DNA of 28,194 nt from a virus (IMGVR_UViG_3300006802_000412:1-28194), one strand, 5' to 3'; shown: positions 50 through 20,306, numbered from the stretch's first letter. A program made the numbers and translations. Notes: generated by a model from the sequence alone, not told the origin.

Positions 50-214
50 ATGAAAATGTCCAAGGAACAACTTTTCGGAATTATCCGCCACGTTATGTCT
101 GCCGCTGCTGGCTACCTCATCTACCGAGGCTACCTCACCGAAGACCAGGCTGCCGAGATTAGCGGTGCTATCCTCGCTATTATGGCCACCACTTGGTCTG
201 TTGGCTCTAAGTAG
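50..214 (+). CDS. Small holin-like membrane protein (54 aa)
   Basis: This short ORF starts at ATG 50 and ends at TAG 212-214. It encodes 54 residues with a charged N-terminus (MKMSKEQLFG), then two hydrophobic stretches at about residues 13-28 and 38-52 separated by an acidic turn (TEDQAAE). Length and layout resemble the small Pam3-gp28-like putative holins, which share a KEQ..RH..t..GG..v.kG...e..a.ei.GA...l....WS pattern. A holin would form holes in the inner membrane and let the endolysin reach peptidoglycan; the amidase at 2322-2732 is the natural partner, but it is on the opposite strand. A promoter box sits just upstream. The last 8 bases overlap the 3' end of the convergent methyltransferase gene. 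The holin role is inferred from family resemblance and topology. Confidence 0.7.
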   Translation: MKMSKEQLFGIIRHVMSAAAGYLIYRGYLTEDQAAEISGAILAIMATTWSVGSK

Positions 215-875
215 GCGTACAAATCACATCAAACTGAATATCTGAAAGCCCATTAGAAGGGTAGATATTTCGGTAAGAGTACCCAAGGCCGCTAATAGCC
301 TCAAAAAGCTGTTCTGCGGTCTTTTCTTTTCTATGAAGCGTGTGTCTGTTAACCTCTATGAGCATATATGGCTTATATTTCTCAATGGTTTGACGACCTC
401 CTTCCAAAACTTCTATTTCCATGCCCTCGCAGTCAATTTTCATGAAGTTGCATGCCTCTAAATTAAGGCTATCAAGGGTAACGCAAGGGATATCGCCTCC
501 ATTGACCGCATGACTTGCCCCAACGTTTTTATCTATAAGGATTTCTATGTTGTGGCTGCTATCGCTAACGCCAAGAGCCATGCACTTGACCCAATTATAT
601 CGGCTCATATTATGAACTAAACAGTCAAACGATATTTGATTGGGCTCAAAAGCCACGACACTGCCAGTCGAGCCAACGGCATTAGCATAGTAAATCGTGT
701 GGTCTCCAATGAAAGCCCCAATATCAACTACCGTATCTCCTTTCTTAATGTATGGCTTGAGTAAACTCAGCATAGATTGGTCATGGTCTAATCTCCCAGA
801 CTGCTTAACCCACTTCGATATATGAGTGTCTCCATCTATAATAGCAATATTGTTCCTTAGGACAATCTTTTTCAT
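207..875 (-). CDS. FkbM-family SAM-dependent methyltransferase
   Basis: The 222-residue product has the class I methyltransferase layout of the FkbM family. Motif I is seen as VVDIGAFIGDHT at residues 49-60 (SAM binding). An AFEPN motif at 75-79 is typical of the acidic loop that contacts the SAM ribose. The FkbM C-terminal signature MKIDCEGMEIEVLEGG lies at 145-160. FkbM enzymes O-methylate sugars or polyketides; next to two glycosyltransferase-like genes, methylation of a glycan is the likely role. It is the last gene of the minus-strand operon; its ATG overlaps the upstream gene's stop by 4 bases (872-875), which suggests translational coupling. The substrate cannot be read from sequence. 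Confidence 0.85.
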   Translation of the reverse strand: MKKIVLRNNIAIIDGDTHISKWVKQSGRLDHDQSMLSLLKPYIKKGDTVVDIGAFIGDHTIYYANAVGSTGSVVAFEPNQISFDCLVHNMSRYNWVKCMALGVSDSSHNIEILIDKNVGASHAVNGGDIPCVTLDSLNLEACNFMKIDCEGMEIEVLEGGRQTIEKYKPYMLIEVNRHTLHRKEKTAEQLFEAISGLGYSYRNIYPSNGLSDIQFDVICTPT

Positions 876-1567
876 TTTAGAATATTTTTTATTTCGTTAG
901 ACTCATCTTCTGTCAGCCCTGACCAAGACCAAAATTGCTTAACCGGTATGCCCTCAAAACCATCCGAAGAGTGCGTATCTATAAAAAGATAGTTATCCGC
1001 ATCAAAATTTTCGGCACATACCCCCATAACATTAAACTCCGAGAAAGTTCTATTCGCAACCCCATTCATGTACTTATACAAAGACTTCCCATGGATTCTT
1101 TCGAGGTATTCATACGTTAGCTTTACCGTTGAGCCATAAAAAAACAACGGCATCCTCCTCATATATTCCCACTCGCACTTAATCTTAGTAGTATTTTCAA
1201 CGATAGGCTTCCATGGAACATCTATTTTAGAGTAAGGAGACTTCAATAAAATAACTCTTCCATCGACCACTTGACTACGAACATCAAATGGCTCATACGC
1301 TATGCAGTCGCTATCCCAATAACAGATTACGTCTGCATCGGTATATCTCCATGCCTCGAGCTTCGTGTACTGCTGACCAACATAACCATCCTTCATATCT
1401 TGAACCTGAACAACGATTTCTTTCGTTAGGTGAGTCAGATGCCTTTTGTTCGGTATAGCCACGATTACGTTTCGATAGCCGGTAACATTCTTTTCAATAG
1501 AAGCCAACGCATAATCTAACCACCTCAAATCCTTCTCGTAAGTCCTAATAAATATGTCTATAATCAT
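872..1567 (-). CDS. GT-A fold glycosyltransferase-like protein
   Basis: The 231-residue protein begins with a short beta strand and an IRTYEKDLRWLDYALASI segment, as in GT-A-type transferases. It carries a DxD motif in CYWDSDC (D85 and D87), the usual site for Mn2+ and the nucleotide-sugar phosphates. Sequence style resembles the DUF6492-like sugar transferase group, although that assignment is by eye. There is no signal peptide or membrane segment, so it should act in the host cytoplasm. It is joined by 4-base overlaps to genes on both sides, so the three are probably translated as a unit. Donor and acceptor are unknown. Confidence 0.65.
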   Translation of the reverse strand: MIIDIFIRTYEKDLRWLDYALASIEKNVTGYRNVIVAIPNKRHLTHLTKEIVVQVQDMKDGYVGQQYTKLEAWRYTDADVICYWDSDCIAYEPFDVRSQVVDGRVILLKSPYSKIDVPWKPIVENTTKIKCEWEYMRRMPLFFYGSTVKLTYEYLERIHGKSLYKYMNGVANRTFSEFNVMGVCAENFDADNYLFIDTHSSDGFEGIPVKQFWSWSGLTEDESNEIKNILK

Positions 1568-2325
1568 ATCATCTGCATTTTAGCACTAATAATTCCAAAA
1601 ACTTCATAAGAAACGCCACCATAGTTAGGCTCTCCATTTGAATGCCTGTTCATCCTTAAATGAGCAGGCTTCCTCCTCGGCTTAGATGAAATACTCTTAT
1701 ACCCCTCCAAGCTTATAAAATGTTCACACATCCGCATCCAATCGGCAGCAGAATACTGAACATGATGCTCCTTATGGTAAAATATAGATGCCTTTATGTT
1801 AAAAATCGGCAAGTCATTGACCGCAAAACGATAGGGCAGCCAATAATCCCACCAAGTTTGCCCCATAACAAAAGGTGCTTCCGAGAATAAGTGATAGAAC
1901 TTCTTATGAACAACAAAAACGTCTATTCCGACAAAATATCTAATCCCTTTAATATAGTTCCCACTATGGTCGTACCTGTTTGATATAACCAGCCCTCTTT
2001 CACAAGCATCTAAGTATCCGCCAAGAACCTTCCTTTGGTCTCGAAGCTCTATGTCTGAGTTTATGAGCATAACCGAGTCATAATCGTTCTTACGAGCGTA
2101 GTCTATCATATCGGTTATGTAGATATACGGTGCTTTGAACACCTCTTTCCCACTTTTAGGCGCATCCACACGAATGCACCCCCTCGGAACTTTTATGTCC
2201 TCGCACGGGTCGTTCATAGTAACCACATCCCCGATATCGGCTGCCACCCAAGAACTCACACACCTCTGCTGAATATCCCCATTCACATGAGTAGGGCTAA
2301 TCGAAGTTATTACGAGCCTTCTCAT
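1564..2325 (-). CDS. GT-A-like glycosyltransferase
   Basis: The 253-residue product starts RRLVITSISPTH and reaches a conserved-looking VMLINSDIEL segment at residues 85-94, where N89-S-D91 sits in the DxD position of GT-A enzymes. A GIDVFVVHKKF segment and a later VMGQTWWDYWLPY segment look like the acceptor side of this fold. I read it as a glycosyltransferase of the phage or plant 'GT-A-like' type, not as a named family. The gene overlaps the upstream amidase by 4 bases (2322-2325) and the downstream gene by 4 bases (1564-1567). The DxD is a variant, so catalytic activity is less certain than for its neighbour. Confidence 0.55.
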   Translation of the reverse strand: MRRLVITSISPTHVNGDIQQRCVSSWVAADIGDVVTMNDPCEDIKVPRGCIRVDAPKSGKEVFKAPYIYITDMIDYARKNDYDSVMLINSDIELRDQRKVLGGYLDACERGLVISNRYDHSGNYIKGIRYFVGIDVFVVHKKFYHLFSEAPFVMGQTWWDYWLPYRFAVNDLPIFNIKASIFYHKEHHVQYSAADWMRMCEHFISLEGYKSISSKPRRKPAHLRMNRHSNGEPNYGGVSYEVFGIISAKMQMI

Positions 2326-2732
2326 ATATGAGCATACTCAGCCTTAGCATCGAACGAGGGACAGGCCTTATTCACTTTTGGGAAGTCGCAGTGGCCTTGA
2401 ATCTTCGCATTCGGGTACTTCTCTCTCCAAGCATAAAGAACTTGGCTTAACGCATCTCTCTGACCTTGCGTTCGGTTATCAAGCGGATTGCCCCTCGAAT
2501 CAATACCCCCAATATAAGAGACGTGGAGGCTAACAGAATTAAACCCAACCACCCCATTACAAATCGCATCATCCTGCGCCAAAGTGATAACTTCTCCATT
2601 TGCTTTAATAATTTTATGATATCCTGGGGATTTCCATCCCAATCTTTCCCGCCAGTGCCGCTGAATGCTCTCTACCGTGGTCGTTTGCGGGGTAGCAGTA
2701 CAATGAACGCACAAGAACTCAATCTTTCTCAT
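2322..2732 (-). CDS. N-acetylmuramoyl-L-alanine amidase (T7 lysozyme-like endolysin)
   Basis: The 136-residue protein is close to T7 lysozyme in size and motifs. The zinc ligands are visible as H10 (CVHCTAT), H114 (QGHCDF) and C124 (KACPSF). The catalytic-type Y38 lies in PGYHKII, and K122, two residues before the Cys ligand, matches the K128/C130 pair of T7 lysozyme. The family cleaves the amide bond between N-acetylmuramic acid and L-alanine and serves as endolysin. There is no signal peptide, so release would need a holin such as the one at 50-214. It lies between a metallophosphoesterase and glycosyltransferase genes on the minus strand, which is an odd place for a lysis gene. Confidence 0.93.
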   Translation of the reverse strand: MRKIEFLCVHCTATPQTTTVESIQRHWRERLGWKSPGYHKIIKANGEVITLAQDDAICNGVVGFNSVSLHVSYIGGIDSRGNPLDNRTQGQRDALSQVLYAWREKYPNAKIQGHCDFPKVNKACPSFDAKAEYAHI

Positions 2733-2766
2733 ATCGTCTAAGTAAGTGATTTTTTCGTTTATCGTG

Positions 2767-2774
2767 CGAATATA
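2767..2774 (-). promoter_or_regulatory. Possible -7 box upstream of the amidase gene
   Basis: Read on the minus strand the bases are TATATTCG, one mismatch from TAnnTTTG. They lie 34 bases upstream of the amidase ATG in the 45-base gap after the metallophosphoesterase stop. An ATCGT/ACGAT inverted repeat (2761-2765 and 2774-2778) overlaps it and could form a small hairpin. This could be an internal promoter, but the match is imperfect. Confidence 0.25.
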
Positions 2775-2777
2775 CGA

Positions 2778-3680
2778 TTAGGTCGTATGAAATTTAGCTT
2801 CGACAAATCTTGTGTCGTTCTGCGCGCCTTCATTCCTTTTACCTAATATAACCCTGTTCACCTTCAAGTTCATCCAATAGCCTCCGAGTGGCTTAATTCC
2901 CCTTCCTCTCTCAACGTGGTATCCACCTTCACCTGCGCCAAATTCCTCCTTGTATGTACTTGTCCGTAGTTGATGTACCCTTCGATGGGTGATGATTTTA
3001 TTTCTTTTGTTGTAATGATGCACCATATTGACATGGTGATATAACTCATGGACATGCCCTTGCCAAGTTAGGTCATAGCCCTCGGTGTTGGCCATCATAC
3101 GTTGGTCTTGAATAACCCCCTTGGTAACTGGGCCACCTCCTCCTGAGCCGTGGTAGTAGTGAATGATGAATGCCGTGTTGCGCGTTACGTCATCGTTTGG
3201 GGTACTTACGTCCAAGTTAATATGGATAGTGCCTCCATATCCGCCAATCTGCACATTTCCTTTATGCTTGTAGTTATATATGGATTGGAAATATTTGAGC
3301 GCGTCAAACTCCATGTGCCGTAATACTCCTGTTTCGTGGTTGCCATAGCCGATTAAAGCAAGGTTGTCCTTGTATGGCGCGAACCAATCCACTGCATCCT
3401 CCACAACAGCTTGCAAATAATTGCCCTTGTTATGCTCCGGTCGGATATCATCCTTGCTTCGCCTTGGGTCTCCCTTCCCTTGCATTAGACAAAAGAAGTC
3501 TCCGTTCACAATAATGATAGCTCCACGCTCAACAGCCTCATCCAAGTCCTTTTTGAGCAACGCTCTATCGCATTTTGGATTGTCCCAATGTAGGTCGGAA
3601 ATCAACAAAAAATCACAGGATTTGCCTTTTATAGTAATTAGGTGAATGTTTGGCTGCATCTGCTGGATTGAGTGTATCAT
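2778..3680 (-). CDS. Calcineurin-like metallophosphoesterase
   Basis: The 300-residue protein shows the complete metal-binding series of the calcineurin-like phosphoesterase family. The motifs are DLH (D29, H31), GD (D61 in NGDFF), GNHE (N114, H115), a His-rich strand HYYHG around 174-178, and GHVH (H209, H211). Such enzymes use two metal ions to cleave phosphomonoesters, phosphodiesters or nucleotides, and occasionally DNA ends. The substrate is not evident. It is the first gene of the minus-strand operon, with its own promoter, and sits back to back with the terminase genes. A role in nucleotide-sugar or DNA metabolism would fit either neighbour set. There is no signal peptide. Confidence 0.88.
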   Translation of the reverse strand: MIHSIQQMQPNIHLITIKGKSCDFLLISDLHWDNPKCDRALLKKDLDEAVERGAIIIVNGDFFCLMQGKGDPRRSKDDIRPEHNKGNYLQAVVEDAVDWFAPYKDNLALIGYGNHETGVLRHMEFDALKYFQSIYNYKHKGNVQIGGYGGTIHINLDVSTPNDDVTRNTAFIIHYYHGSGGGGPVTKGVIQDQRMMANTEGYDLTWQGHVHELYHHVNMVHHYNKRNKIITHRRVHQLRTSTYKEEFGAGEGGYHVERGRGIKPLGGYWMNLKVNRVILGKRNEGAQNDTRFVEAKFHTT

Positions 3681-3701
3681 TAAGTGGCTTGGTTAATGCC
3701 A

Positions 3702-3709
3702 CAAAGATA
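3702..3709 (-). promoter_or_regulatory. -7 box TATCTTTG for the minus-strand operon
   Basis: On the minus strand TATCTTTG is an exact TAnnTTTG match, 21 bases before the metallophosphoesterase ATG. It should drive the minus-strand operon of phosphoesterase, amidase, transferases and methyltransferase. No convincing -33 TTG is seen. Confidence 0.6.
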
Positions 3710-3747
3710 GTAACCCTAATTAAGTCAGTTTTTTCATAAAAATCTAT

Positions 3748-3755
3748 CATATTTG
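3748..3755 (+). promoter_or_regulatory. -7-like box CATATTTG for the terminase genes
   Basis: CATATTTG differs from TAnnTTTG only at the first base. It ends five bases before the ATG at 3761, so the transcript would be leaderless or nearly so. It is divergent from the minus-strand -7 box, with 38 bases between the two. One start region can therefore serve both directions. Confidence 0.45.
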
Positions 3756-3760
3756 CACAC

Positions 3761-4192
3761 ATGGAAGAAAGTCCATTAGAAAAGAAAGAGAAAAGGAGGG
3801 CTAATCTTGTGGAGTTAAACAAGAATACAAGAATAGTTAATGGCGTTCCGCATGGTAGTATTGTCGGAGCTGCTGAACTTAAGAAGAAAGACCTCCGTAA
3901 AATGATTGAGGCTGAACTCTCTAAAAAAATTAGCGGTACTACTCGTGCAGAAGGATTAGTTGCTCGCTTGATAACCATGGGAATCCAAGGAAACATGAGA
4001 GCGATAGAGCTTATATTGGCCTACCTATACGGAAAACCACAATCCCAAGTTATAGAAGCAGACAACAAACCCTTTGTTTTAGAGCTTACTGAGCCAGAAA
4101 AAGAAGAAGCTTCTATTATGGCTGAAACATATACACAAGTTATTAACAATCAATCTGATGAAACTAACGGCGAAGCAGACGTTAGCTTATAA
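3761..4192 (+). CDS. terS: Putative terminase small subunit
   Basis: The 143-residue protein lies directly before, and overlaps, the large terminase gene. It is mostly charged and helical. The N-terminus is basic (KKEKRRANL). A central ELKKKDLRKMIEAELSKK helix is followed by GNMRAIELILAYLYGKPQ, a pattern seen in phage terminase-small or DUF5681-like proteins where a helical segment precedes a 'YGKP' loop. Small subunits bind the packaging site and load the motor. No clear helix-turn-helix can be assigned by eye, so the call rests on position plus the YGKP-type segment. The acidic tail overlaps the terL start by 35 bases. Confidence 0.65.
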   Translation: MEESPLEKKEKRRANLVELNKNTRIVNGVPHGSIVGAAELKKKDLRKMIEAELSKKISGTTRAEGLVARLITMGIQGNMRAIELILAYLYGKPQSQVIEADNKPFVLELTEPEKEEASIMAETYTQVINNQSDETNGEADVSL

Positions 4193-5501
4193 ACTTGCTC
4201 TATCTGGGGAAAAGCAGTTCATTCTATTTGGCGGGGCAATTCGAGGCGGCAAAACTTACTGGCTTCTTCTCACCTTCATATCTCTTTGCTCTAAGTATCC
4301 TAAGTCTCGGTGGCTAATAGTGCGTTCTTCAAGGCCTACCCTTGAGCGCACCACTATGGTTACATTTAATATGATACTGAGTGAAGGGCTTAAACATTAC
4401 ATATCTGGCTACGATAAGCAGTCTTTAACCGTTACATTCAGTAACGGCAGTGAGCTTATCTTTATGGGGGAGAACTACGACACCGACAAAGACCTTGACC
4501 GCTTCAAAGGGCTTGAAATCAACGGAGGTGGGATTGATGAGATTAACGAGTGCCAAGAGGCTACTTTGTATAAAATGTTAGAGAGGGCAGGTTCTTGGAA
4601 CAACGCTGAGGGCAGGCCTCCTATTGTTGTCTTGGCTACTTGCAACCCGGCAAGTAATTGGGTGAAGGAGGAGGTTTACGATAAGTGGGTGAAGGGAACT
4701 CTGCCTGACACTTGGGCGTACATTCCATCCAAGATAACGGACAATCCGTATATCCCGGAGGACTACCTTAATTCCTTGAAGGCCAATATGCCGGAGTACG
4801 AGTACCTTCGTTTCGTTGAGGGCGACTGGGAGGTTCAAGAGAAGCCTGAAAATCCGTTCTTCACCGCATTTGAGCCGAAGCAGCACGAAAGCCAAGAGAC
4901 GTTTTTCAATCCGAACTTGCCGATTTTATTCTCCTTTGACTTCAACTTACAGCCCTTCGCAGGTATTGTATGCCAAAAGTGGAAGGACGATGAGGGCGAG
5001 CACTTCCATATCGTTGATGAGTTCTCCGTTGCTGATGGCTCTATCCCTAAGATGATAGACGTGATAAAAGAACGCTATGAGCCATACCTTCCTATGTGCT
5101 TGGTTACTGGCGATGCTATGGGCAAACGAGGCGATTTATCTCAGAGGGATAATGCCAACTACTATGAGCAGTTAGCAAGGGGCTTGAAGCTAAGCGGAAA
5201 GCAAATCCGTGTTCAAGATAACCCCAAGCATGAGAACTCTCGAGCCGAGTGCAACTATATTTTGAGGCACTTCCCTGATTTTAAGGTTAATCCAAAGACT
5301 TGCCCCAATACGGCAAGAGACCTTCGAATGCTCAAATGTGATGCCATGGGAAGCATAATTAAGCGAAATAGAAATATAATAACACAACTCGCAGACCACG
5401 GAGATTGCCTCCGCTATGGATTCCACACATATCTTGGAGAGTGGTATATTTACCACTTGAAAAAGAGTGGTTATAAACACATGCCCTATGAGCTGTATTG
5501 A
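4158..5501 (+). CDS. terL: Terminase large subunit (packaging ATPase/nuclease)
   Basis: The 447-residue protein has both terminase domains. In the ATPase half, Walker A is GGAIRGGKT (25-33), Walker B ends GGGIDE (123-128, with catalytic E128), and the coupling motif is VLATCNP (158-164). In the RNase H-like nuclease half, acidic residues appear as D261 (FSFDFN), D319 (TGDAMG) and D413/D416 (LADHGDC). The enzyme drives DNA into the prohead through the portal and cuts the concatemer. Start ATG 4158 places the adenine-binding and Walker A segment at the normal distance from the N-terminus. The portal gene is 12 kb downstream rather than adjacent. Confidence 0.95.
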   Translation: MKLTAKQTLAYKLALSGEKQFILFGGAIRGGKTYWLLLTFISLCSKYPKSRWLIVRSSRPTLERTTMVTFNMILSEGLKHYISGYDKQSLTVTFSNGSELIFMGENYDTDKDLDRFKGLEINGGGIDEINECQEATLYKMLERAGSWNNAEGRPPIVVLATCNPASNWVKEEVYDKWVKGTLPDTWAYIPSKITDNPYIPEDYLNSLKANMPEYEYLRFVEGDWEVQEKPENPFFTAFEPKQHESQETFFNPNLPILFSFDFNLQPFAGIVCQKWKDDEGEHFHIVDEFSVADGSIPKMIDVIKERYEPYLPMCLVTGDAMGKRGDLSQRDNANYYEQLARGLKLSGKQIRVQDNPKHENSRAECNYILRHFPDFKVNPKTCPNTARDLRMLKCDAMGSIIKRNRNIITQLADHGDCLRYGFHTYLGEWYIYHLKKSGYKHMPYELY

Positions 5502-5826
5502 GTGTACCGATTGCCCTTCCATTGGGACTTATGACATTTGTTGCGATGAAATAGTCGTAGCTACTAACTTAACCGCATCTACCGATTATTTGGTTAGGAT
5601 ACTTGACTTAACCTTGAATAGATACATTAACGAAACGGTAACGAGTGATGCTTCTGGGAACGTTTCTATTTCTATAAGTCAAGCTGTCTATGCGCCAAAC
5701 AGAACGTATGAGGCGAAGGTTTATGCAGATGCGACTTGTTCTTTGGATGACCCCATTGAGTTTGAGATGCCTGATACTTCCGAGGCTGCTGATTGTGTTT
5801 CATTTGAACTAATTTATGCTGATTGA
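5488..5826 (+). CDS. Small Cys-rich beta protein, probable virion component
   Basis: From ATG 5488 the product is 112 residues (MSCIECTDCPS...). A GTG at 5467 would add seven residues; the ATG is preferred because it gives the smaller overlap with terL. The N-terminus packs cysteines as C3, C6, C9, C18 and C19. The rest alternates polar and hydrophobic residues (VVATNLTASTDYLVRI, GNVSISISQ, TYEAKVYAD), which suggests an immunoglobulin-like beta sandwich. The ECxDCP motif recurs in the tail protein at 13187-14572, so I infer a structural role. I do not recognise a named family. The end overlaps the next gene by 11 bases. Confidence 0.6.
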   Translation: MSCIECTDCPSIGTYDICCDEIVVATNLTASTDYLVRILDLTLNRYINETVTSDASGNVSISISQAVYAPNRTYEAKVYADATCSLDDPIEFEMPDTSEAADCVSFELIYAD

Positions 5827-6109
5827 AAGAGCTATTGTGGTTAGCCTTATGATTGTGGCTACCCATATTTCTATGGAGGTGGATATGTGGCTTGAATGGC
5901 TAAGACGTATTCTTTCCAAGTTTGTCCCTGAGTCAAGTGTATGGAGCAAGCCATTATACAACTGCGTTGGCTGTATGGCTTCCTTTTGGGGTGTTTTCTA
6001 CTATTGTATTACTGCTTTAACCCCTTACTTTGGGTTTAGTCTTATAGAAATGGCTATCGTGTGCGTTATCTGCATACCTTTGAACTTCATTTTTATAAAA
6101 CTATCGTGA
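5816..6109 (+). CDS. Small membrane protein with CxxC motif
   Basis: The 97-residue protein has an N-terminal hydrophobic helix (about 5-20), an amphipathic middle (MWLEWLRRILSKF), and two strongly hydrophobic stretches near 54-72 and 76-94. Between them lies NCVGCMASFWG, a CxxC next to aromatic and glycine residues that resembles the C-x-x-C-xx-FW signature of small DUF1360-like membrane proteins. Function is unknown; a second holin or a membrane-associated assembly or entry factor are possibilities. It overlaps the preceding gene by 11 bases and ends inside the GTGA start of the following gene. Confidence 0.65.
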   Translation: MLIERAIVVSLMIVATHISMEVDMWLEWLRRILSKFVPESSVWSKPLYNCVGCMASFWGVFYYCITALTPYFGFSLIEMAIVCVICIPLNFIFIKLS

Positions 6110-6765
6110 TAGCCGAATTACTTTACAAATGGTTTCCCAAGCAGTTCAATCAACTTGTTTGGGATGCTACCTATAAGCCGGACAAGATGCGCGGATTAAA
6201 GTTCGCCTTTGTCTGCGAGGGGCACAGGTTCTATGTGTTTGACTCTCTCTTTGAGATGCCTTTGGAGCGTCTTGGGAGGGCTCAAGACTTCGTAATGCAG
6301 CTTCAGAGGATGGTGAGCGACCAAGAGCTAACGCGGTTTCTCGATTCTATGGAGTCTGCTTTATTCGAGTCCACGAATGCTGAAAAGCTTAAGTCCATAT
6401 CGAGGATTGGGTTTCTGATAGGGGAGATGAAGGAGCGTAAGAAGATTTTGATTCACCCTGAAATCATGATGGAGCTTGCAAGCTGTATGCTTGTAAGGGA
6501 AGACCAAGACCCTGCCGACTGGAATGATGAGTTTGAGCAGAAGAAGGTGGAGATGTTCCGAAGGAACTACAAAGGCAAGGGGTTATATGATTTTTTCGTT
6601 TCCGGCGGGTTGAAACAGTTCTTTCCCAACTTAGATTCTTTCGAACAAGATTGGGAAACATATTTAGAGATGTCTCAGTCCCGCCTCAAAGCCCTCGAGG
6701 AGTTGATGAAATCACCTCGCTCGGTAGGCAGCTCTACGACCAAGACAAAGAGTACCGTGAATTAG
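6106..6765 (+). CDS. Putative tail assembly chaperone, upstream frame (G-like)
   Basis: I start this gene at GTG 6106, which overlaps the previous stop by 4 bases (GTGA); an earlier GTG at 6061 would bury 49 bases inside the membrane-protein gene. The product is about 219 residues, helical and charged, with no motif I can name. It sits immediately before a second overlapping frame and then the tape measure gene, the classical place of the lambda G/GT tail chaperone pair. Reading sense is strong up to LKALEELMK (to about 6711). After that the frame gives a low-quality tail (SPRSVGSSTTKTKSTVN), while the -1 frame becomes protein-like. This points to a -1 frameshift giving a fusion of about 275 residues. 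The chaperone role is inferred from position. Confidence 0.65.
   Translation: MIAELLYKWFPKQFNQLVWDATYKPDKMRGLKFAFVCEGHRFYVFDSLFEMPLERLGRAQDFVMQLQRMVSDQELTRFLDSMESALFESTNAEKLKSISRIGFLIGEMKERKKILIHPEIMMELASCMLVREDQDPADWNDEFEQKKVEMFRRNYKGKGLYDFFVSGGLKQFFPNLDSFEQDWETYLEMSQSRLKALEELMKSPRSVGSSTTKTKSTVN
6591..6597 (+). other. Candidate -1 slippery heptamer T-TTT-TTC
   Basis: In the upstream chaperone frame the codons TTT TTC are preceded by T, giving a perfect X-XXY-YYZ heptamer. The -1 frame has a TGA at 6588-6590 directly before it and is then open to 6932, so the heptamer lies exactly where the -1 frame opens. A weak 5 bp stem (GTTTC 6598-6602 with GAAAC 6612-6616) follows at once. Against it, codon sense in 6597-6700 still favours the upstream frame, so the actual shift may lie nearer 6700-6715. 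Confidence 0.35.
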
Positions 6766-6932
6766 TTATCTATCTATCTGAGGGGGATGTCCTTCGCTAC
6801 AACGCCTACATGAAAGTGTCCGTTGAAAAAGCCTTAACTTTGCTTGAGTTTAATCGAGAGAGGCAGAAACGGGAAATGGAAAGTCTAAAAAGCGATGGCA
6901 AGAATACAGATAGAATATACGGCAAGCGTTGA
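6651..6932 (+). CDS. Putative tail assembly chaperone, downstream frame (T-like, by -1 frameshift)
   Basis: This frame is -1 relative to the preceding gene and is open from 6591. The only start-like codons are TTG 6651 and ATG 6810. Good protein-like sequence already begins near 6702 (VDEITSLGRQLYDQDKEYRELV), well before that ATG. An independent start is therefore awkward, and a frameshift from the upstream gene is the simpler explanation, as in lambda G-T. The segment is helical and charged and ends 38 bases inside the tape measure gene. In the family such a T domain binds the tape measure protein while tail tube subunits assemble around it. Coordinates give the ORF, not a proven start. Confidence 0.55.
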   Translation: MGNIFRDVSVPPQSPRGVDEITSLGRQLYDQDKEYRELVIYLSEGDVLRYNAYMKVSVEKALTLLEFNRERQKREMESLKSDGKNTDRIYGKR

Positions 6933-11226: not shown

Positions 11227-13190
11227 GTTTTCAGGTATCTATAAATGATGGCACGTCTTGGATAGCCTTATCCGATGAGCCTATGGGCTTGGTTGATGCG
11301 AATATTAAGATTTATCGTGATGAGCAGTTTAGTGGGATAGTGAGTAACATTGTTTCCGACCTTTCCTTTTGGGGTGATGGTTGGGACGTTATCTACCGTT
11401 TGTTTACGGACTCTACTCAATGCTTGGAGATACCTGTTCGTATTGAGCAGAATGACTGCACTGGTTTTTTCTTTGAGGGCATTATCTTCCTTGCCGATAT
11501 TGAGCTTGATATTAGCAGGTGTATAGCCAAGTGCACGATTTCGGATAATTCTTTGTCCTCTCTACTGGCACGAAACTACGATGTTAAAGTTCCTATAAAC
11601 AGCGAGAAGAGTATTGATGGGACTGCCTTATCCCCTATTGGGGAGATACTGTATAATCCGTTTTATGCAGGCGTTCCTTCGGTAAACTATTGGCCTAATG
11701 AAGGCCCGTTTGTTGATGGCCCGTTTCGTTGGTATGGCCTTATGGAGTTGTATCCATACGTTATGAGGTATTTTACGAACAACGCTCCGCTTACTTTCCA
11801 AGATGACCCTATAAATCCTTATTTTTCTGACTCATCAAAGTATTTTAATCCTGACCACTGGAGGATAAGGATAGATGCCCCTTGTAATACAACGGGCGCA
11901 AATCCCGCTTGCCAAGTAAAGTTTAATGATGCCTATGGGGTAGAGCAAACAATAAGCGTGAATCTTATTGATTGTATAGTTACGGCATTCACTCCACAAA
12001 GAGTTTTGTTGATGATAGGTGAGGTCATAGGAAGCCATTTTACTATGACAAGCATAAATCCATTTGATGGCGAGTGGATAGAGAACTATTGTGATAGGGC
12101 TATGTTTGTTACAGAGCCCGAAGTAGCCCCCGCTCCAAATCCGAGCGGATTCGACAGATATATAGATGTTTACTTCCCTTGGGATGCTGGCACGTTACAA
12201 GTAGTGAATTTGGTTGATTGCACCTTTGGAGGCCTTACAATAACGCAAGAGGGAACGTACAGCTACGGCCCGTATTACACGAGGATAACCTCCGGCAAAA
12301 CCTTAAAGAATTTCGTTAATCCTGCGGCAACAACTCCAGAGGATGATGCCATAGCCAATGCAGCCAAGATTAACGTTTCATTTGCCGACCTACAACAAGG
12401 TTTTGGGGTGCTGTTTAACGCGGCATTAAAGTTCACCAAGGATGGGGCAGGGAATGACGTGGTTACGATAGGGCAAGAGAAGAACTTCTACGAAACAACC
12501 GAGGCTTTTTCCATTGGCGATATTTATGAGATAAAGCTCATTAAGGATAATGTTTTTGGCATATCGGCACTCAAGATAGGGCAGTCTAATACCAATCCTT
12601 CCTTTGAGGCAGGCATTCAAGAGGAAGCGGATTATGTGAGTAATGTGTGCAATAGCCAAAGCTATGACGCGACTACTGGGTTTATAATACCCACCATTGA
12701 TTCGTTAGTTGAGCTCGATGGCGTTCCTACTTTGGATGACGAAACCTTGTATATAGCCGAGAAAGACCCTAATGAGCAGAGTACAACTGGGTATGTTACA
12801 AATTTCTATAAGATAGCGGCTCATGGCGTGAGTTATTACAAGAGAGATGACTGGGGTGTAGTGGCAGGTGCTCCGTACTGCCCATATCGTTTCCAAGCCG
12901 AGATACTTGCCGGGGTTGTAAACCATCCTGAGATAGCCAAGGCATACGCTCATCGTGGCGGAGATGGGTTTTATTGGAATGGTAACTTTGTGCCGAACAC
13001 TACTGGGGTGAACATCAAGAACAAGATATCTTTTGAAGCACCTATATCGGTTGATAATTTCAATGCGATAAGGGCTAATCCATATCAGAAGATTCGCTAT
13101 GGAAGCGGATTGAATGACGTTGGTTGGGTGTTCAGCCTTGAATACAGCATTACTACTGGAATGACTAAATTTGAACTTTTAACGGAATGA
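11223..13190 (+). CDS. Large tail protein downstream of tape measure (distal tail/baseplate candidate)
   Basis: The 655-residue product starts at ATG 11223 in an ATGA overlap with the tape measure stop. It is rich in beta strands, aromatic residues and Asp/Asn, with a Cys pair around residues 75-110 (STQCLEI, NDCTGFFF) and SRCIAKCTISD. No enzymatic motif is seen. In siphophages the genes directly after the tape measure encode the distal tail protein and tail-associated hub, and this gene's size and place fit that role. It is coupled by ATGA to the following large tail gene, so the two are probably made in fixed ratio. Family-level identity is not recognised. Confidence 0.6.
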   Translation: MSFQVSINDGTSWIALSDEPMGLVDANIKIYRDEQFSGIVSNIVSDLSFWGDGWDVIYRLFTDSTQCLEIPVRIEQNDCTGFFFEGIIFLADIELDISRCIAKCTISDNSLSSLLARNYDVKVPINSEKSIDGTALSPIGEILYNPFYAGVPSVNYWPNEGPFVDGPFRWYGLMELYPYVMRYFTNNAPLTFQDDPINPYFSDSSKYFNPDHWRIRIDAPCNTTGANPACQVKFNDAYGVEQTISVNLIDCIVTAFTPQRVLLMIGEVIGSHFTMTSINPFDGEWIENYCDRAMFVTEPEVAPAPNPSGFDRYIDVYFPWDAGTLQVVNLVDCTFGGLTITQEGTYSYGPYYTRITSGKTLKNFVNPAATTPEDDAIANAAKINVSFADLQQGFGVLFNAALKFTKDGAGNDVVTIGQEKNFYETTEAFSIGDIYEIKLIKDNVFGISALKIGQSNTNPSFEAGIQEEADYVSNVCNSQSYDATTGFIIPTIDSLVELDGVPTLDDETLYIAEKDPNEQSTTGYVTNFYKIAAHGVSYYKRDDWGVVAGAPYCPYRFQAEILAGVVNHPEIAKAYAHRGGDGFYWNGNFVPNTTGVNIKNKISFEAPISVDNFNAIRANPYQKIRYGSGLNDVGWVFSLEYSITTGMTKFELLTE

Positions 13191-14572
13191 GTTTACAAGC
13201 TACACCGAATCAGCCCCTTGACTGGCAGTTACTTCCTTTGGGGGAAGCTGAATGCCCTGACTGCCCTCCTTCGGACTACTGCTCTCCGATGTTATTCGAG
13301 CGGTATTTAGATTCTGGCTCTTACTACTATCGTTCCAAAGATTATTTCAGCTTCTCGATAGAGGGAAGCCTTGCAGCGGAGGATATGTGCCCTATTGTTA
13401 TGGAAGGAGTTGAAACCACGGCAGAAAATTCTCAAATAACTTTTAACGATAACGGCTCTGTAACAATACAGTTCGGCCCGCTTGAAAGTCCTGGAGAGGA
13501 TTCATTCGCTCGTTTTGATAATTTCCCGACAGAAATAGGTTGCCCACTCGTGTTTACATACTGCGTGGATTGGGATACGGATTGCGAGGGCTGCGAATCT
13601 TCCCGCGTCTATCCTGTTGAGCTTTTCTTTTCTATTAACGGAACGAATACGCCATCCCAAACAAGGACTGTAACAATAAACAGCCCAGATGAACTTCCAA
13701 AGTGTAGTGCGGTAGTATTTACGGGCATTGCGGATAGCACGGTTGAATTACAGATAACGGGCACTGAAAGCGTACCAGCAACCTTTTGTGAGCCAGAAGG
13801 AGACCCCTGCACCTCTCAAATTACATTTGCTCCTTACACCGCTTGTAATGTAGTGCCATTAAACATAGTAACCGCTAACGGAACTCCTAACGAGTGGGGT
13901 GGCACTTTTAACTTAATCCACTACAACTTCGGAACGATAGATGGCGAGACCTATTACATTACAGGGGTTTATCAGATAGATGGTATACCTGAGGTGGCTG
14001 TTATAGGTAATTCAGCATTCTCTACTTATGTAGAAAACTGCATGAAGATAAACATATCTGTTGGTGATTGCTGTAATGAGTGCGAGCAACAGGTATTCGA
14101 GTCCGTATGCATAAAGCCCATCCTCGACCCTTGTGGAACGGTTAGGGTTGAATACTACCAAGACGTTACCACTACGGAGGATGCCTTCGGATTCGGGTTC
14201 TACTACCCTGCTACAAGCCCTACGTTCACTCAGCATATGAGGCTTCCTGGGAATGTTCGAGATGCCAAGTACGATGGTACGATGATTTCCTATCAAGATT
14301 CGCTTGGCAGAAAGAGGGTTGTTTATGCTGAAAGGAGGAAGGCTCTTTCCTTCAATACCGGTAGAGTTCCAGAGTACGTTCACGATGCCCTAAGCCTTGC
14401 TTGTAGGCACGATAACTTCTTATTGGAAGATGCCCTTTACAGCGTGAATGATAATTTCTTTACGAGAACTACTGAATACACTCCAACATACATTCGTATG
14501 AGCCGCCTTGCTCCTGTGAGTTTGGAGGTTGAGGTTAAAACCCAAGACCTAAAAAAGAATATGTGTATTTAG
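13187..14572 (+). CDS. Cys-rich tail protein (tail tip candidate)
   Basis: The 461-residue protein starts with an ATGA overlap. Its N-terminal segment has a dense Cys motif, ECPDCPPSDYCSPM, that echoes the ECTDCPS motif of the gene at 5488. More pairs follow in the middle (DTDCEGCES, GDCCNECEQQVFESVC). The C-terminal 130 residues (GFGFYYPATSPTF, YDGTMISYQDSLGRKRVVY, EYVHDALSLACRHDNF) look like a compact conserved domain of Bacteroidota phage tail proteins. The cysteines may bind metal or cross-link the tip. It is the last gene of the tape measure operon; a new promoter begins 3 bases after its stop. Role is inferred from position. Confidence 0.58.
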   Translation: MSLQATPNQPLDWQLLPLGEAECPDCPPSDYCSPMLFERYLDSGSYYYRSKDYFSFSIEGSLAAEDMCPIVMEGVETTAENSQITFNDNGSVTIQFGPLESPGEDSFARFDNFPTEIGCPLVFTYCVDWDTDCEGCESSRVYPVELFFSINGTNTPSQTRTVTINSPDELPKCSAVVFTGIADSTVELQITGTESVPATFCEPEGDPCTSQITFAPYTACNVVPLNIVTANGTPNEWGGTFNLIHYNFGTIDGETYYITGVYQIDGIPEVAVIGNSAFSTYVENCMKINISVGDCCNECEQQVFESVCIKPILDPCGTVRVEYYQDVTTTEDAFGFGFYYPATSPTFTQHMRLPGNVRDAKYDGTMISYQDSLGRKRVVYAERRKALSFNTGRVPEYVHDALSLACRHDNFLLEDALYSVNDNFFTRTTEYTPTYIRMSRLAPVSLEVEVKTQDLKKNMCI

Positions 14573-14574
14573 CG

Positions 14575-14582
14575 TATATTTG
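14575..14582 (+). promoter_or_regulatory. -7 box TATATTTG for the putative tail tube gene
   Basis: TATATTTG is an exact TAnnTTTG match placed three bases after the stop of the preceding gene. It is followed by a leader of about 65 bases before ATG 14652. With the terminator at 15265-15293 it makes the gene between them a one-gene transcription unit, as expected for a protein needed in many copies. Confidence 0.6.
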
Positions 14583-14593
14583 CGTGTCGTTGT

Positions 14594-14612
14594 TGTGGTA
14601 GAGGCTACCATA
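14594..14612 (+). promoter_or_regulatory. Stem-loop in the leader of the putative tail tube mRNA
   Basis: TGTGGTAG (14594-14601) pairs with CTACCATA (14605-14612) around an AGG loop; the core TGGTAG/CTACCA is perfect. It would lie about 7 bases after the transcript start. No T-tract follows, so it is not a terminator; a 5' stabilising hairpin for a highly expressed mRNA is the simplest idea. Confidence 0.4.
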
Positions 14613-14651
14613 TAAAGTCCCTCGAAACCAAACTTCTTAAACTTAAAAAAA

Positions 14652-15239
14652 ATGGCTTTTTGCTCTTATGATTGTTCCGAACTCCCAGACCACGAGATAG
14701 TAGTCTGTGGAGACTATAAACTTGGCGGTATTTCCGCTGCCGCTATCTTGAATTGTGATTTAGATTTAGATGGAGACCCAAACCTATCCTTGGATGCTAC
14801 TTGGGAAGGATGGGCTACTGCCGGTAGCGTAAAACCTATCCGACAGATTAAAGGCACTGTTGCAAGTCCTGCTGCTGTTGAAGTTCCAAATCCGATTGCT
14901 TGTGGCCCTGAAAACATCCTTGTGGGCTTCAACTGGACTTGTACTTGGCAGGATGCCAATGCTACTGGTGCTTCTTCTGGGAGTTCATTTACAGGTGGCA
15001 ACACGGATTTCTATTGCGACCTTAACACTCGTACTACCTATTTGGCTTTGTACTTGTGTGGTAGCGATGAGGTTATGTTGATTAACTTCCCTACGAACTA
15101 CCGTGCTGCCTTGATGATTCCAGACAATGACCGTGCCTTGCAAATGTTCGAGGTTTCGGCTACTGCCTACATCCCTGTCGGTGCTTGTATTCAGAAGTTT
15201 CCTGCTCCTCCTACTTTCTTCGACACAGTTCCTGCTTAA
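14652..15239 (+). CDS. Putative major tail (tube) protein
   Basis: The 195-residue product has its own promoter and a strong terminator, so it is a separate, probably abundant, transcript. The N-terminus MAFCSYDCSELPDHEIVVCG resembles short Cys-bearing N-termini I associate with Bacteroidota phage virion proteins; nine cysteines occur in all. The body alternates beta strands (KPIRQIKGTV, ILVGFNWTCTWQD, TTYLALYLCG, EVMLINFPTNY, MFEVSATAYIPVGA), which fits a tail tube beta-sandwich. An A-rich leader (AAACTTAAAAAAAATG) replaces a Shine-Dalgarno. It follows the tape measure operon rather than preceding it, which is unusual for a tube gene. A small decoration or fibre protein is the main alternative. 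Confidence 0.55.
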   Translation: MAFCSYDCSELPDHEIVVCGDYKLGGISAAAILNCDLDLDGDPNLSLDATWEGWATAGSVKPIRQIKGTVASPAAVEVPNPIACGPENILVGFNWTCTWQDANATGASSGSSFTGGNTDFYCDLNTRTTYLALYLCGSDEVMLINFPTNYRAALMIPDNDRALQMFEVSATAYIPVGACIQKFPAPPTFFDTVPA

Positions 15240-15264
15240 TCTTTCATCCTCATCTTTCAAATTA

Positions 15265-15293
15265 GAGCCACAAATGCGTGGCTCTTTTTTTTT
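15265..15293 (+). terminator. Intrinsic terminator after the putative tail tube gene
   Basis: GAGCCAC (15265-15271) and GTGGCTC (15278-15284) form a perfect 7 bp stem with a 6-base loop, followed by nine T residues. The T-tract runs straight into the next promoter box at 15293. Confidence 0.92.
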
Positions 15294-15300
15294 ACTTTTG
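15293..15300 (+). promoter_or_regulatory. -7 box TACTTTTG, near-leaderless promoter for glycosyltransferase cassette
   Basis: TACTTTTG matches TAnnTTTG and is followed by CCCT and the ATG at 15305. The transcript start would fall at or within a few bases of the start codon. The string TTTGCCCTATGAA is identical at 22624-22636 in front of another operon. Confidence 0.6.
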
Positions 15301-15304
15301 CCCT

Positions 15305-16171
15305 ATGAATACGCCAATAGTCCTTCTTGCCTTAAACAAAAAGGAATACTATCAGATGGCTTTCAATGCAGCGGCATCTATCAAGCACTTTAACCAAGGC
15401 GTTCAGATAACGCTCCTACACGATGGGAAGCATAAGCTACCTGAATCTAAGTCTTGGATTTTCGATAAGAGCATTTGTATGGATGCTGATGATACTACCC
15501 ACAATGGGGTATTTCATCCCGGGAAGGCTAAGCTCAATATTCACAAGTACCTCAACAAGGGCGCTTACCTATACCTCGATGTAGATGTTATCTGCATAGC
15601 TCCATTTGGGGATATAGTAGAGAACTGCGAGAAGGCTAAGGGGTATTACTACATTTTACAGAGTGGGCACTTATGGGCATCTGAATCCGATATACGGCAC
15701 TACAACGGCTTATCTGCCGATGCTGTTATCTACGGAATGAACTCTTCGTTTATGTTTATGAGGACTGGTAAGGAGCTGACCAAGTTCTTTTATAGGGCTA
15801 TGAAGGCTATGTTTGAGGGACTTCCTGCTTCCAATCTTTCGATGCCTTGGGGGCAGTCCTACCCAGATGAACTTGCGATGACCGTTGCTTGTGCCGACTT
15901 GAAGGTAAATCCATACCTTGACTTTGGAGACCCGATTAGGTTCTTTGGAAGAACTTCGAACTATGACCAAGAGATAGGTGGCGCAAGGATGGTTGCTTTA
16001 TTTGGCCCGAAGGGGATGATTCCATTAAAAGCCATTGATAAGTGCGACAAGGTTATGAGGAATGTCTGCGCTACTTTCTCTATGGCTCATGAGTACAAAA
16101 TACTTCCTCTTATGAAGGGCAAGTACGCCAACAAACACCGCCTTGTTGAAGGTGGTATAAATCGTGGGTAA
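15305..16171 (+). CDS. GT-A (GT8-like) glycosyltransferase
   Basis: I use ATG 15305, giving 288 residues; a GTG at 15278 lies inside the terminator stem and is rejected. The protein shows a GT8-like order: PIVLLALNKKEYYQMAFNAAASI at the start, then a catalytic DxD in YLYLDVDVICIAPF (D92, D94), then GMNSSFMFMRTG, and a Pro/Trp-containing acceptor segment (MPWGQSYPDELAMTVA). Such enzymes transfer hexoses from nucleotide sugars with retention of configuration. There are no membrane segments. It heads a three-gene cassette driven by its own promoter and overlaps the next gene by 8 bases. The acceptor may be a virion protein or a host glycan. Confidence 0.72.
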   Translation: MNTPIVLLALNKKEYYQMAFNAAASIKHFNQGVQITLLHDGKHKLPESKSWIFDKSICMDADDTTHNGVFHPGKAKLNIHKYLNKGAYLYLDVDVICIAPFGDIVENCEKAKGYYYILQSGHLWASESDIRHYNGLSADAVIYGMNSSFMFMRTGKELTKFFYRAMKAMFEGLPASNLSMPWGQSYPDELAMTVACADLKVNPYLDFGDPIRFFGRTSNYDQEIGGARMVALFGPKGMIPLKAIDKCDKVMRNVCATFSMAHEYKILPLMKGKYANKHRLVEGGINRG

Positions 16172-17039
16172 GCAAATTAAGATACGCGCCTTTTCTGATT
16201 GGGCAACTTCCTTTGCCCTCCACGATAAGATTATCGACCAATTTATGGGAGTGAAGCAACTTCGAGATACGATGATGTTCGTAACCGATGACTCCTATGA
16301 CTATGCGGTAGTCTTTGACCACAAGGGAGACAACGAGATACTTACTCCGAAAGACCGCACTCTTGGCTTTATAACTGAGCCACCTGATAGTACGCATTTT
16401 GATAGGCTTTTAAGCGATTATTGCCTTAGGGTGTACACTTGTGGCTCTGCCGAGAGTTATGGTCTTAGAGGCGATGTTAGGCACTTTCCTATGGGTGTTT
16501 TCTACCACTTGGAAGGTGAGATAGAAGATTATATGGTTTTGCCTCCCAAAACGCATAAGTTGGGGATGGTTTTGAGTGCTACGAGTGGTGGCTTTTACGA
16601 TTATCGGATGAATATTGCCAAGGCGATAGCAACGAGTAGCATAGGCTCTGTGTATGGTAGGGGGTTGAACTTTAAGGGCGTGAAGGGAGAGTTATCCAAC
16701 AAGGCTAACGGCTTGATTCCTTTTGAGTTCTCGGTTTGTATGGAAGGTGGGATATGGGATGGATATATGTCTGATGAGGTCTTGGATGCTGTTTTATGCT
16801 CTTGCATACCGATTTATGTGGGTTGCTCTACGATTACCACCTATGTTCCATTTGCGATACCGCTTGTTCGGTATGACAATCCGAAGGCGGCTATTAAGGA
16901 GATAGAAGATATTTTGGCGAGTGTAAAGTACGAGGAGGTTTATCCTCTAATTTTGTCTTGGAAGAAGAAGTATCTTACCAACTACAACCTATACGAAAAG
17001 ATAAGAGAGTTTATATGCAGCAAGCAATCGACATTGTAA
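16164..17039 (+). CDS. GT10-like (fucosyltransferase-type) glycosyltransferase
   Basis: The start is GTG 16164, overlapping the upstream stop by 8 bases. The 291-residue protein shows a GT-B-like layout. Its C-terminal half has the pattern of alpha-1,3-fucosyltransferases of family GT10: FEFSVCMEGGIWDGYMSDEVLDAVLCSCIPIYVGCS at about 187-222. This corresponds to the family's 'F.ia.EN....YvTEK..da..ag.vPvy.G' segment, although the EN and TEK residues are changed (ME and SDE). The N-terminal half is divergent. The family uses GDP-fucose; whether this protein does cannot be told. Next in the cassette is an FkbM-like gene. Confidence 0.62.
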   Translation: MGKQIKIRAFSDWATSFALHDKIIDQFMGVKQLRDTMMFVTDDSYDYAVVFDHKGDNEILTPKDRTLGFITEPPDSTHFDRLLSDYCLRVYTCGSAESYGLRGDVRHFPMGVFYHLEGEIEDYMVLPPKTHKLGMVLSATSGGFYDYRMNIAKAIATSSIGSVYGRGLNFKGVKGELSNKANGLIPFEFSVCMEGGIWDGYMSDEVLDAVLCSCIPIYVGCSTITTYVPFAIPLVRYDNPKAAIKEIEDILASVKYEEVYPLILSWKKKYLTNYNLYEKIREFICSKQSTL

Positions 17040-17629
17040 CCAAATCATTCAAGGACATTGAGGACATTCTGATAGTCGAAATAAACGCGAGGGATGGCTC
17101 GGTTACTAAGAAGTTGGCTGAGATACCGAGTTCAACTGTTCATTCTTTTGAGCCTTACGCGAGTAAGGTGATACCTAACTTACCGAGTAATGTGATTATG
17201 AATTACAGCGCGGTTATGGAAAAGGATGGAGTTACGAACCTGTGGATTCCAATGGATGGTGAGCGGTATGCATATAACAGGACTACAAGTTATACGGAGG
17301 CGATGCCTCCTTCGGTTACTTACCGAAAGATGATAGAGGTGAAAACTGTTTCTCTTGAATCATATCTTAGGGGGTATGGGCATACTTACATTGACTTGCT
17401 TTGGATTGATTGGTATGAATCTGAGGTGGGTGTTGTAAGGAACTGCCTTGCTTCGGTGGGTTCTACGAGTTTTATGTTCGTTAAGTGGGGTAATTTGACC
17501 GATATGTTTGGCCGGCCGAGGATTGAGCCTATCTTAAATCTGATAGGTGATGATTGGGATGTTATTGCCACATGGGACAGCGATGTACTGCTGGCTAATA
17601 GCCGTTTTGTAGAAAAAACAACAAATTGA
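17015..17629 (+). CDS. Divergent FkbM-like methyltransferase
   Basis: I choose ATG 17015 (204 residues, MQQAIDIVTKSF); an earlier TTG at 16958 would overlap the upstream gene by 82 bases. The fold pattern is FkbM-like: IVEINARDGSVTKKLAEI in the motif I place, SSTVHSFEPYASKV with the FEP motif, then VKTVSLESYLRGYGHTYIDL and LWIDWYESEVGVVRNCL in the place of the KIDxEGxExxVL signature. Compared with the enzyme at 207-875, the DIGAxxG loop and the IDxEG acids are altered, so SAM binding or activity may be weakened. It closes the second transferase cassette and is followed by the portal promoter. Confidence 0.55.
   Translation: MQQAIDIVTKSFKDIEDILIVEINARDGSVTKKLAEIPSSTVHSFEPYASKVIPNLPSNVIMNYSAVMEKDGVTNLWIPMDGERYAYNRTTSYTEAMPPSVTYRKMIEVKTVSLESYLRGYGHTYIDLLWIDWYESEVGVVRNCLASVGSTSFMFVKWGNLTDMFGRPRIEPILNLIGDDWDVIATWDSDVLLANSRFVEKTTN
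17612..17624 (+). repeat. 13-mer GAAAAAACAACAA upstream of portal promoter (copy 1)
   Basis: The 13 bases GAAAAAACAACAA lie 26 bases before the TACCTTTG box at 17638. They recur exactly at 25496-25508, 25 bases before a weaker box at 25521. The constant distance puts it around -33 to -45, where a sigma or UP element would bind. Copy 1 is inside the last codons of the FkbM-like gene. Confidence 0.45.
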
Positions 17630-17663: not shown

Positions 17664-17705
17664 ATGTGTAAATGTAGAGGAGGAAGAAGGGGAGGTTCAA
17701 GATGA
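17664..17705 (+). CDS. 13-residue Cys/Arg/Gly micro-ORF coupled to the portal gene
   Basis: The sequence ATG TGT AAA TGT AGA ... TGA encodes MCKCRGGRRGGSR. Its TGA overlaps the portal ATG as ATGA (17702-17705), the form used for translational coupling. It is the first ORF on the transcript from the TACCTTTG promoter. The peptide is strongly basic with a CxC. The purine-rich codons that give Gly and Arg also form the Shine-Dalgarno of the portal gene, so the ORF could be a by-product of that site. No homology can be judged at this size. Confidence 0.35.
   Translation: MCKCRGGRRGGSR
17689..17695 (+). promoter_or_regulatory. Strong Shine-Dalgarno GGGGAGG of the portal gene
   Basis: GGGGAGG is followed by a 6-base spacer and ATG 17702, with further AGAGGAGGAAGAAGG just upstream. 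Other starts in the window have A-rich leaders and no such site, as is usual in Bacteroidota, so this one stands out. It fixes the portal start at 17702. Confidence 0.6.
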
Positions 17706-19564: not shown

Positions 19565-20306
19565 GTTTTTTGAGCTTATCCTTCTTTTGCTTTCTCGGTT
19601 TAGCTTCGATGATGAAGGAAATGTAGAGCAAACTGATGCCAACTACGCTCGATTCAATGGGATGGTAGATGACATTGAGGAGGCTTTATACGATAGTGGG
19701 TTTTCCGATACGATAGCCTATTTTCAGCAGAGTGTTGAGCAGGTGAAGGGACTTATTGAGGGTGAGTTTAACTTATCCGATGAGAGCGAGATGCTTCGTG
19801 ATACTTTGAATGCCGGGCAAGTGGAGGTTGAGGGGATTGCCGCAGAGGACATTCGTAGTGCTTCAAGGGATATTTCTACCGAGATAGCGAGCCTTATCGT
19901 GTTTTTAATTGTTGCTGGTTCAAGTCGTTCCGCCATTGAGGATTCTTTGGAGGAGTTGATAGTCGGCAATAGTTCTAAACTTGGTGTTGTTTCCCACAAT
20001 ACGAACACGAGGTTTGATTCTGTTTTCTCTGCTGTGGTTCGCTCGTATGCCTATTCGATATACACGCTATTGGGCTTCAATGAGTTTAGGTATGAGGGTG
20101 GCTTGATACAAGATTCAAGACCTTTCTGCGTTGAGCGCAATGGAAATACTTACACTACCGAGCAAGTTAAGTCTTGGGCTGATTTGCCTCAATGGAGGGG
20201 TAGAATGCCAGGGACTACCAAGGAAACGATATTCTTCTATTTGGGGGGGTATCGTTGCCGCCACTGGCTTGTTCCCATTAAGAATGCTGACCAACAAAAC
20301 GCTTAA
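19485..20306 (+). CDS. MuF-like minor head protein
   Basis: The 273-residue protein has a helical N-terminal two thirds and a typical MuF C-terminus: IQDSRPFCVERNGNTYT, followed by LPQWRGRMPGTTKE and LGGYRCRHWLVPI. The SRPFC / GGYxCRH combination is the MuF signature, with Cys and His residues likely to bind metal. MuF proteins sit inside the procapsid near the portal and help head maturation or accompany DNA. ATG 19485 lies within the portal gene, giving an 80-base out-of-frame overlap; no later in-frame ATG leaves an intact N-terminal helix. No toxin domain is fused to it, unlike some MuF proteins. Confidence 0.85.
   Translation: MAYDKIIELLDEVPQEIAQRNKESENRFFELILLLLSRFSFDDEGNVEQTDANYARFNGMVDDIEEALYDSGFSDTIAYFQQSVEQVKGLIEGEFNLSDESEMLRDTLNAGQVEVEGIAAEDIRSASRDISTEIASLIVFLIVAGSSRSAIEDSLEELIVGNSSKLGVVSHNTNTRFDSVFSAVVRSYAYSIYTLLGFNEFRYEGGLIQDSRPFCVERNGNTYTTEQVKSWADLPQWRGRMPGTTKETIFFYLGGYRCRHWLVPIKNADQQNA

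Follow-up and report, generated by a model that had tools for sequence, protein, structure and literature searches.

The window, meaning the whole stretch of DNA analysed here, is the linear IMG/VR virus record IMGVR_UViG_3300006802_000412:1-28194 of 28,194 bases. It encodes terminase, tape measure, portal, putative scaffold and capsid, amidase and holin, together with six predicted sugar-transferring or methylating enzymes. Three of these genes, at 1564-2325, 872-1567 and 207-875 on the minus strand, share a 4-base overlap at each junction, and three on the plus strand, at 15305-16171, 16164-17039 and 17015-17629, overlap by 8 and 25 bases. All six had been reported, with these coordinates and overlaps, in a preliminary description that read them as two parallel cassettes of two glycosyltransferases (GT) and an FkbM methyltransferase. 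Profile searches and structure prediction support the transferase identities at family or fold level. The claim of a common order holds by class (GT, GT, methyltransferase), but the matching positions are occupied by different families except for FkbM. Pairwise dN/dS against near relatives lies between 0.03 and 0.28 for the six genes, the single exception being a divergent pair of the first minus-strand gene (0.42), indicating that all six are maintained and that purifying selection is acting on each of them. The two sets had also been credited with different promoters; a simple scan for Bacteroidota-type sites found none ahead of either. We infer a Bacteroidota host only from the scarcity of Shine-Dalgarno sites (2 of the 25 window genes) and from weak matches of the portal and terminase, which include Polaribacter, Bacteroides and Flavobacterium phages among others. 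At the right end of the window an ORF that remains open (26069-28194) encodes a Ser/Thr-rich product with repeated NYGNGWYRC-type segments, a probable receptor-binding or tail-fibre protein.

The first minus-strand gene, GTa (1564-2325), has no Pfam family that we could find. Its AlphaFold model (pLDDT 82) retrieves in Foldseek the WrtF fucosyltransferase, a polypeptide GalNAc-transferase and others at E about 1e-4 and TM up to 0.57, matches that are weak yet consistent and suggest a GT-A-like enzyme. GTb (872-1567) gives a weak family match to PF20102 (DUF6492, 1.5e-5). A WDSD motif of DxD type is invariant across its alignment, and glycogenin is weakly nearest to its profile at an E of about 0.04, below significance. 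The initial naming of the pair as GT-A-like thus stands on the fold for GTa and, for GTb, goes as far as the DUF6492 match. FkbM1 (207-875), a predicted SAM-dependent methyltransferase of FkbM type, hits PF05050 at 1.2e-17 (65 bits, the curated cut-off being 22.7) and the methyltransferase family phrog_8156 at 4e-29. Its motifs DIGAxxGDHT, FEPN and DCEG are all intact in the family alignment. Immediately upstream, the gene of an N-acetylmuramoyl-L-alanine amidase with a role in lysis (2322-2732, minus strand; PF01510 6.7e-12, phrog_822 3.7e-42) overlaps GTa by 4 bases, so that the minus-strand unit is amidase-GTa-GTb-FkbM1, the end of a lysis-side unit rather than a free cassette. A holin gene (50-214, plus strand; PF23987 Phage_holin_10, 5.1e-12) is convergent with FkbM1 and places the set in the lysis region. 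Past the holin, just outside the window's left edge, four related contigs carry a gene for a GT-B glycosyltransferase (L010:10161-11228, minus strand, PF13692 9.3e-9; also in L009, L011 and L013).

The plus-strand set begins with a GT8-like glycosyltransferase (15305-16171). Its AlphaFold model (pLDDT 88) has LARGE1, glycogenin and LgtC as top Foldseek matches (1e-7 to 1e-8), and its DxD motif (D92, D94) is invariant in the family. The fold is nearest to GT8 enzymes but none of 13 family members matches the GT8 Pfam models, and we therefore call the protein GT8-like, without filing it under GT8. The next gene (16164-17039) encodes a predicted glycosyltransferase of GT10 type, similar to alpha-1,3-fucosyltransferases. 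The window's copy searched by itself against Pfam gives no match, and the assignment is borne out through its family, 10 of whose 11 members match PF00852 (Glyco_transf_10, best 5.5e-14) and whose profile hits the Helicobacter pylori fucosyltransferase 2nzw at 2.4e-9 and 5zoi at 3e-9. FkbM2 (17015-17629) passes the PF05050 cut-off of 22.7 with 25.5 bits (E 1.3e-5 to 1.6e-5) and its relatives reach 1.9e-14, so that both methyltransferases merit the FkbM name that they had been given. SAM motif I of FkbM2 is partly degenerate, reading EINARDG, and EIGAHKG in the relatives L066 and L072.

This set is flanked by a conserved 195-aa protein (14652-15239, plus strand) that is syntenic in relatives and by the portal protein (17702-19564, plus strand; phrog_7376, 1.1e-9). 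The position in the structural region, next to tail tube and portal, is confirmed as regards the portal; the putative tail tube, that is the 195-aa protein, has no family or structure match when the window's copy is compared with PHROG and the PDB, and the label stays putative. A search for Ser/Thr-rich acceptors drew attention to a TGASSGSSFTGG loop that the 195-aa protein possesses in the window's subclade and lacks in others. It was dropped as a candidate acceptor site since other structural proteins are equally rich in Ser/Thr stretches. Two neighbours have features of their own. In the portal there is a weak match, below the Pfam cut-off, to a DnaJ-like zinc finger with four cysteines, present as an insert. 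The Cys-rich protein of the structural region encoded at 13187-14572 is 72% identical to that of L003, against 95-98% for its neighbours, and varies from about 460 to 806 aa across relatives, which suggests mosaic exchange at this position.

Relatives were gathered by a portal-anchored search that was blind to sugar genes; all are metagenomic contigs, many of them fragmentary. Sugar genes occupy the slot between the 195-aa gene and the portal in every one of the 41 contigs that display both markers. Since their portals are 74-100% identical and the contigs share recent ancestry, this count reflects conservation within one clade and not 41 independent events. With genes labelled by BLAST to proteins of the window or its relatives (E 1e-4), the islands comprise 3-8 genes in 13 architectures. 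The GT8-like gene always comes first (41/41), GT10 is present in 38 and a methyltransferase gene in nearly all. Additional cargo consists of GT2, FkbM, Methyltransf_23/24, a DegT aminotransferase and hexapeptide and PglD-type acetyltransferases, and a few island ORFs lack any match. The form GT8-GT10-FkbM2 recurs in L004 and L054; judged by gene content, the window's plus-strand trio is a short version of a clade-wide, variable island in the structural operon. Judged by hydropathy, the 288 island ORFs are practically free of membrane segments. The threshold is exceeded by 12 of them, namely one 80-aa ORF and 11 GT8, GT10 or acetyltransferase ORFs, which are likely extended ORFs or contain buried strands. 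No membrane GT, flippase or GtrABC-like protein was seen in the islands. In two contigs the island includes a DegT aminotransferase (L077:7682-8916) and PglD/hexapeptide acetyltransferases (L077; L091:7374-7937), a cargo that suggests an N-acetylated aminosugar variant.

The locus behind the amidase behaves differently. A GTa module following the amidase is found only in the window's close clade, and there GTa is constant while all else varies: what follows it is either GTb-FkbM1, the same pair preceded by a methyltransferase gene, other GT-like genes or just one FkbM gene. Nearly all the remaining amidase relatives have no recognised sugar genes at this place, and the amidase side of L150 has just a relative of the GT-B gene located past the holin in other contigs.

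The search with GTa, which yielded 45 relatives, connects the two loci. In L019, L020 and L021 all six genes lie in a single run, GT8-GTa-GTb-FkbM1-GT10-FkbM2, bounded by the 195-aa gene and the portal, and L022 has the same run plus one additional methyltransferase. The idea of two parallel cassettes consequently does not hold as a unit: one is a short form of the structural-operon island and the other a portable trio that is found inside that island elsewhere. Nor is the three-gene order uniform among related phages, where the GT8-like gene is always first, the trio is kept as a unit in some and the distal content varies. In a distant clade whose portal is 25-31% identical to the window's, GTa-GTb-FkbM1 precedes the portal. 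The upstream edge is marked there by another protein, of about 185 aa, with a homologue of the window gene 19485-20306 sitting between it and GTa. These phages were first reached via GTa; a later portal-anchored scan of 17 contigs, close relatives of one another, found GTb and FkbM1 in all 17 and GTa in the 16 that are not cut short. A GDP-mannose 4,6-dehydratase gene (PF16363, 1.3e-113) is present in 16 of the 17, and L015, L016, L017 and L053 have in its place an epimerase-family, GDP-fucose-synthase-like gene. Such enzymes match a donor supply for the putative GT10 fucosyltransferase. An ORF between GTb and FkbM1 in L018 (8635-9093, plus strand) may encode a sulfotransferase (PF00685 at E 0.027, short of the cut-off), a hint that a sulfated variant exists.

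The identity matrices of GTa, GTb and FkbM1 agree better with each other (r 0.79-0.89) than with that of the portal (0.52-0.55), and L020, whose portal is 86% identical to the window's, has a trio that resembles those of the distant clade more closely. The three genes therefore seem to pass between phage lineages together. A recent transfer of the trio out of an L020-like island into the window's phage was considered and rejected, since the L020 copy is closer to the distant clade's than to the window's. These data also bear on the rather unlikely alternative that the two sets are separate cargo, parallel in appearance and without a joint pathway here, which is compatible with either of them acting on the virion. 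The different families at corresponding GT positions and the independent variation of the amidase-side locus behind GTa are what it would predict. The joint occurrence of the six genes in one run in L019-L021 and the mutual agreement of the trio matrices speak against it.

We privilege the hypothesis that these phages encode the glycosylation of their own virion with a methyl-capped, fucose-type glycan, which we regard as probable. The enzymes would be expressed late, alongside the structural genes. A sugar would probably be attached to, or started on, some abundant protein of the virion by the cytosolic GT8-like enzyme. Using a GDP-sugar as donor, GT10 would add a deoxyhexose of fucose type, which FkbM2 would cap by O-methylation. 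GTa, GTb and FkbM1 may build another branch, likewise methyl-capped, or a different glycan. With the genes of the island exchanged between phages, relatives would probably have differing sugar coats, which may alter recognition or protection of the particle. The case for virion proteins as target combines the fixed position of the genes in the structural block with the solubility of the enzymes, the genes for a GDP-fucose-type donor in relatives, an enzyme of a fucosyltransferase family and the methyl caps; the near absence of membrane segments in island ORFs is expected for a cytosolic modification of such proteins. The late-operon location by itself only suggests a virion target, and we infer the virion protein as acceptor, the sequence of steps, the identity of the sugars and the advantage gained alike. 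Three observations count against the virion: part of the window's system resides in the lysis region, outside the structural genes, the SAM motif of FkbM2 is partly degenerate, and the 41 relatives are not independent. Of what the preliminary description had proposed, a methyl-capped glycan system probably acting on virion proteins fits the comparative data (the island in 41 of 41 relatives, lack of lysogeny signs, likeness to mycobacteriophage Corndog, see below), parallel cassettes excepted. Independent variation of the genes, which it had taken as an argument against such a system, is seen for the distal genes and not for the always-present GT8-like gene.

Late in infection a host glycan could also serve as substrate of these enzymes. 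We consider it unlikely that their main role is remodelling of a host surface glycan or its precursor, blocking superinfection or helping release of progeny. Surface polysaccharide loci typically carry GT and FkbM genes, the minus-strand genes are coupled in translation to that of the amidase and run towards the holin gene, and the fast turnover of gene content would also suit an arms race over receptors. However, an integrase gene (PF00589) is found in none of 20 records, making lysogenic conversion unlikely, and a late change of surface would be of little gain to a lytic phage. The conserved place of the genes is the structural block and not the early region. The gtrABC serotype conversion of temperate phages resembles the present case in that phage GTs alter a surface glycan, but it requires lysogeny and membrane proteins, neither of which is found in the present phages (20 records and 288 island ORFs, respectively). 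Glycosylation of a hypermodified base in phage DNA against restriction is very improbable: some GTs of phages are known to act on DNA (Pyle 2024, as cited in PMC12619734), but no gene of the thymidylate synthase family (PF00303) occurs in the 20 records, eleven of at least 37 kb and some perhaps incomplete, and the usual set for DNA modification does not consist of a GDP-deoxysugar supply, a GT10 enzyme and FkbM caps encoded next to structural genes. The missing integrase, thymidylate synthase and island membrane proteins thus weaken the alternatives to virion glycosylation.

Virion glycosylation has been established experimentally in a few mycobacteriophages, where it affects antibody recognition. 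The subunits of capsid and tail tube are reported to carry the glycans (Freeman 2023, as cited in PMC12363180 and PMC12619734). The closest precedent by layout is the cluster O phage Corndog, in which gp35-gp38, an O-methyltransferase and three GTs encoded between portal and protease, were proposed to modify the capsid (PMC4351075). Both systems combine methyltransferase and GT genes within the structural block and lack an integrase, in our case across 20 records. The island described here differs by its position upstream of the portal, its GT8-like, GT10 and FkbM families and its high variability, and relatives of the window's phage add GDP-sugar, aminosugar and acetylation genes. Corndog is likened by layout, no mycobacteriophage appearing among the matches listed when annotated phages were searched with GTa, GTb, GT8 and GT10. 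Chlorovirus PBCV-1 offers a second parallel, as its soluble, virus-encoded GTs act on its major capsid protein and it makes its own GDP-sugars. One of these capsid GTs appears in the GTa fold search (2p6w, E 1.3e-4), a similarity that is generic to the GT-A fold, and PBCV-1 is an algal virus with an unrelated virion. Among named phages GTa and GTb have no match. GT8 gives one weak match to annotated phages, and GT10 only partial ones of about 30% identity, to Synechococcus phages and uncultured or marine phage records. GTDB genomes scanned with GTa and with the portal contain no relative, and no GT is annotated close to the distantly related portal of a Polaribacter phage.

The window's phage and all its checkable relatives carry, inside their particle-building genes, a swappable set of genes for attaching and methylating sugars, which probably provides a changeable coat on their own particles. 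Such a coat is already known for a few mycobacterial viruses, and environmental phages would supply a further variant. More tentatively, and with somewhat less than an even chance in our estimation, this clade of uncultured, apparently lytic phages may possess an obligatory, combinatorial 'glycotype' locus in which a fixed GT8-like initiator is joined by exchangeable transferases, methyltransferases and nucleotide-sugar enzymes. It would confer a strain-specific virion coat, as O-antigen varies in bacteria, and would do so without an obvious vertebrate immune driver. The conserved flanks are a simple handle for cataloguing glycotypes in metagenomes. If a glycan island is indeed always present and freely exchanged across the clade, sugar coats on virions would be a routine, fast-evolving phage trait, and one would have to ask by what they are read in nature, with the receptors or defences of the host, grazers and surfaces as candidates.
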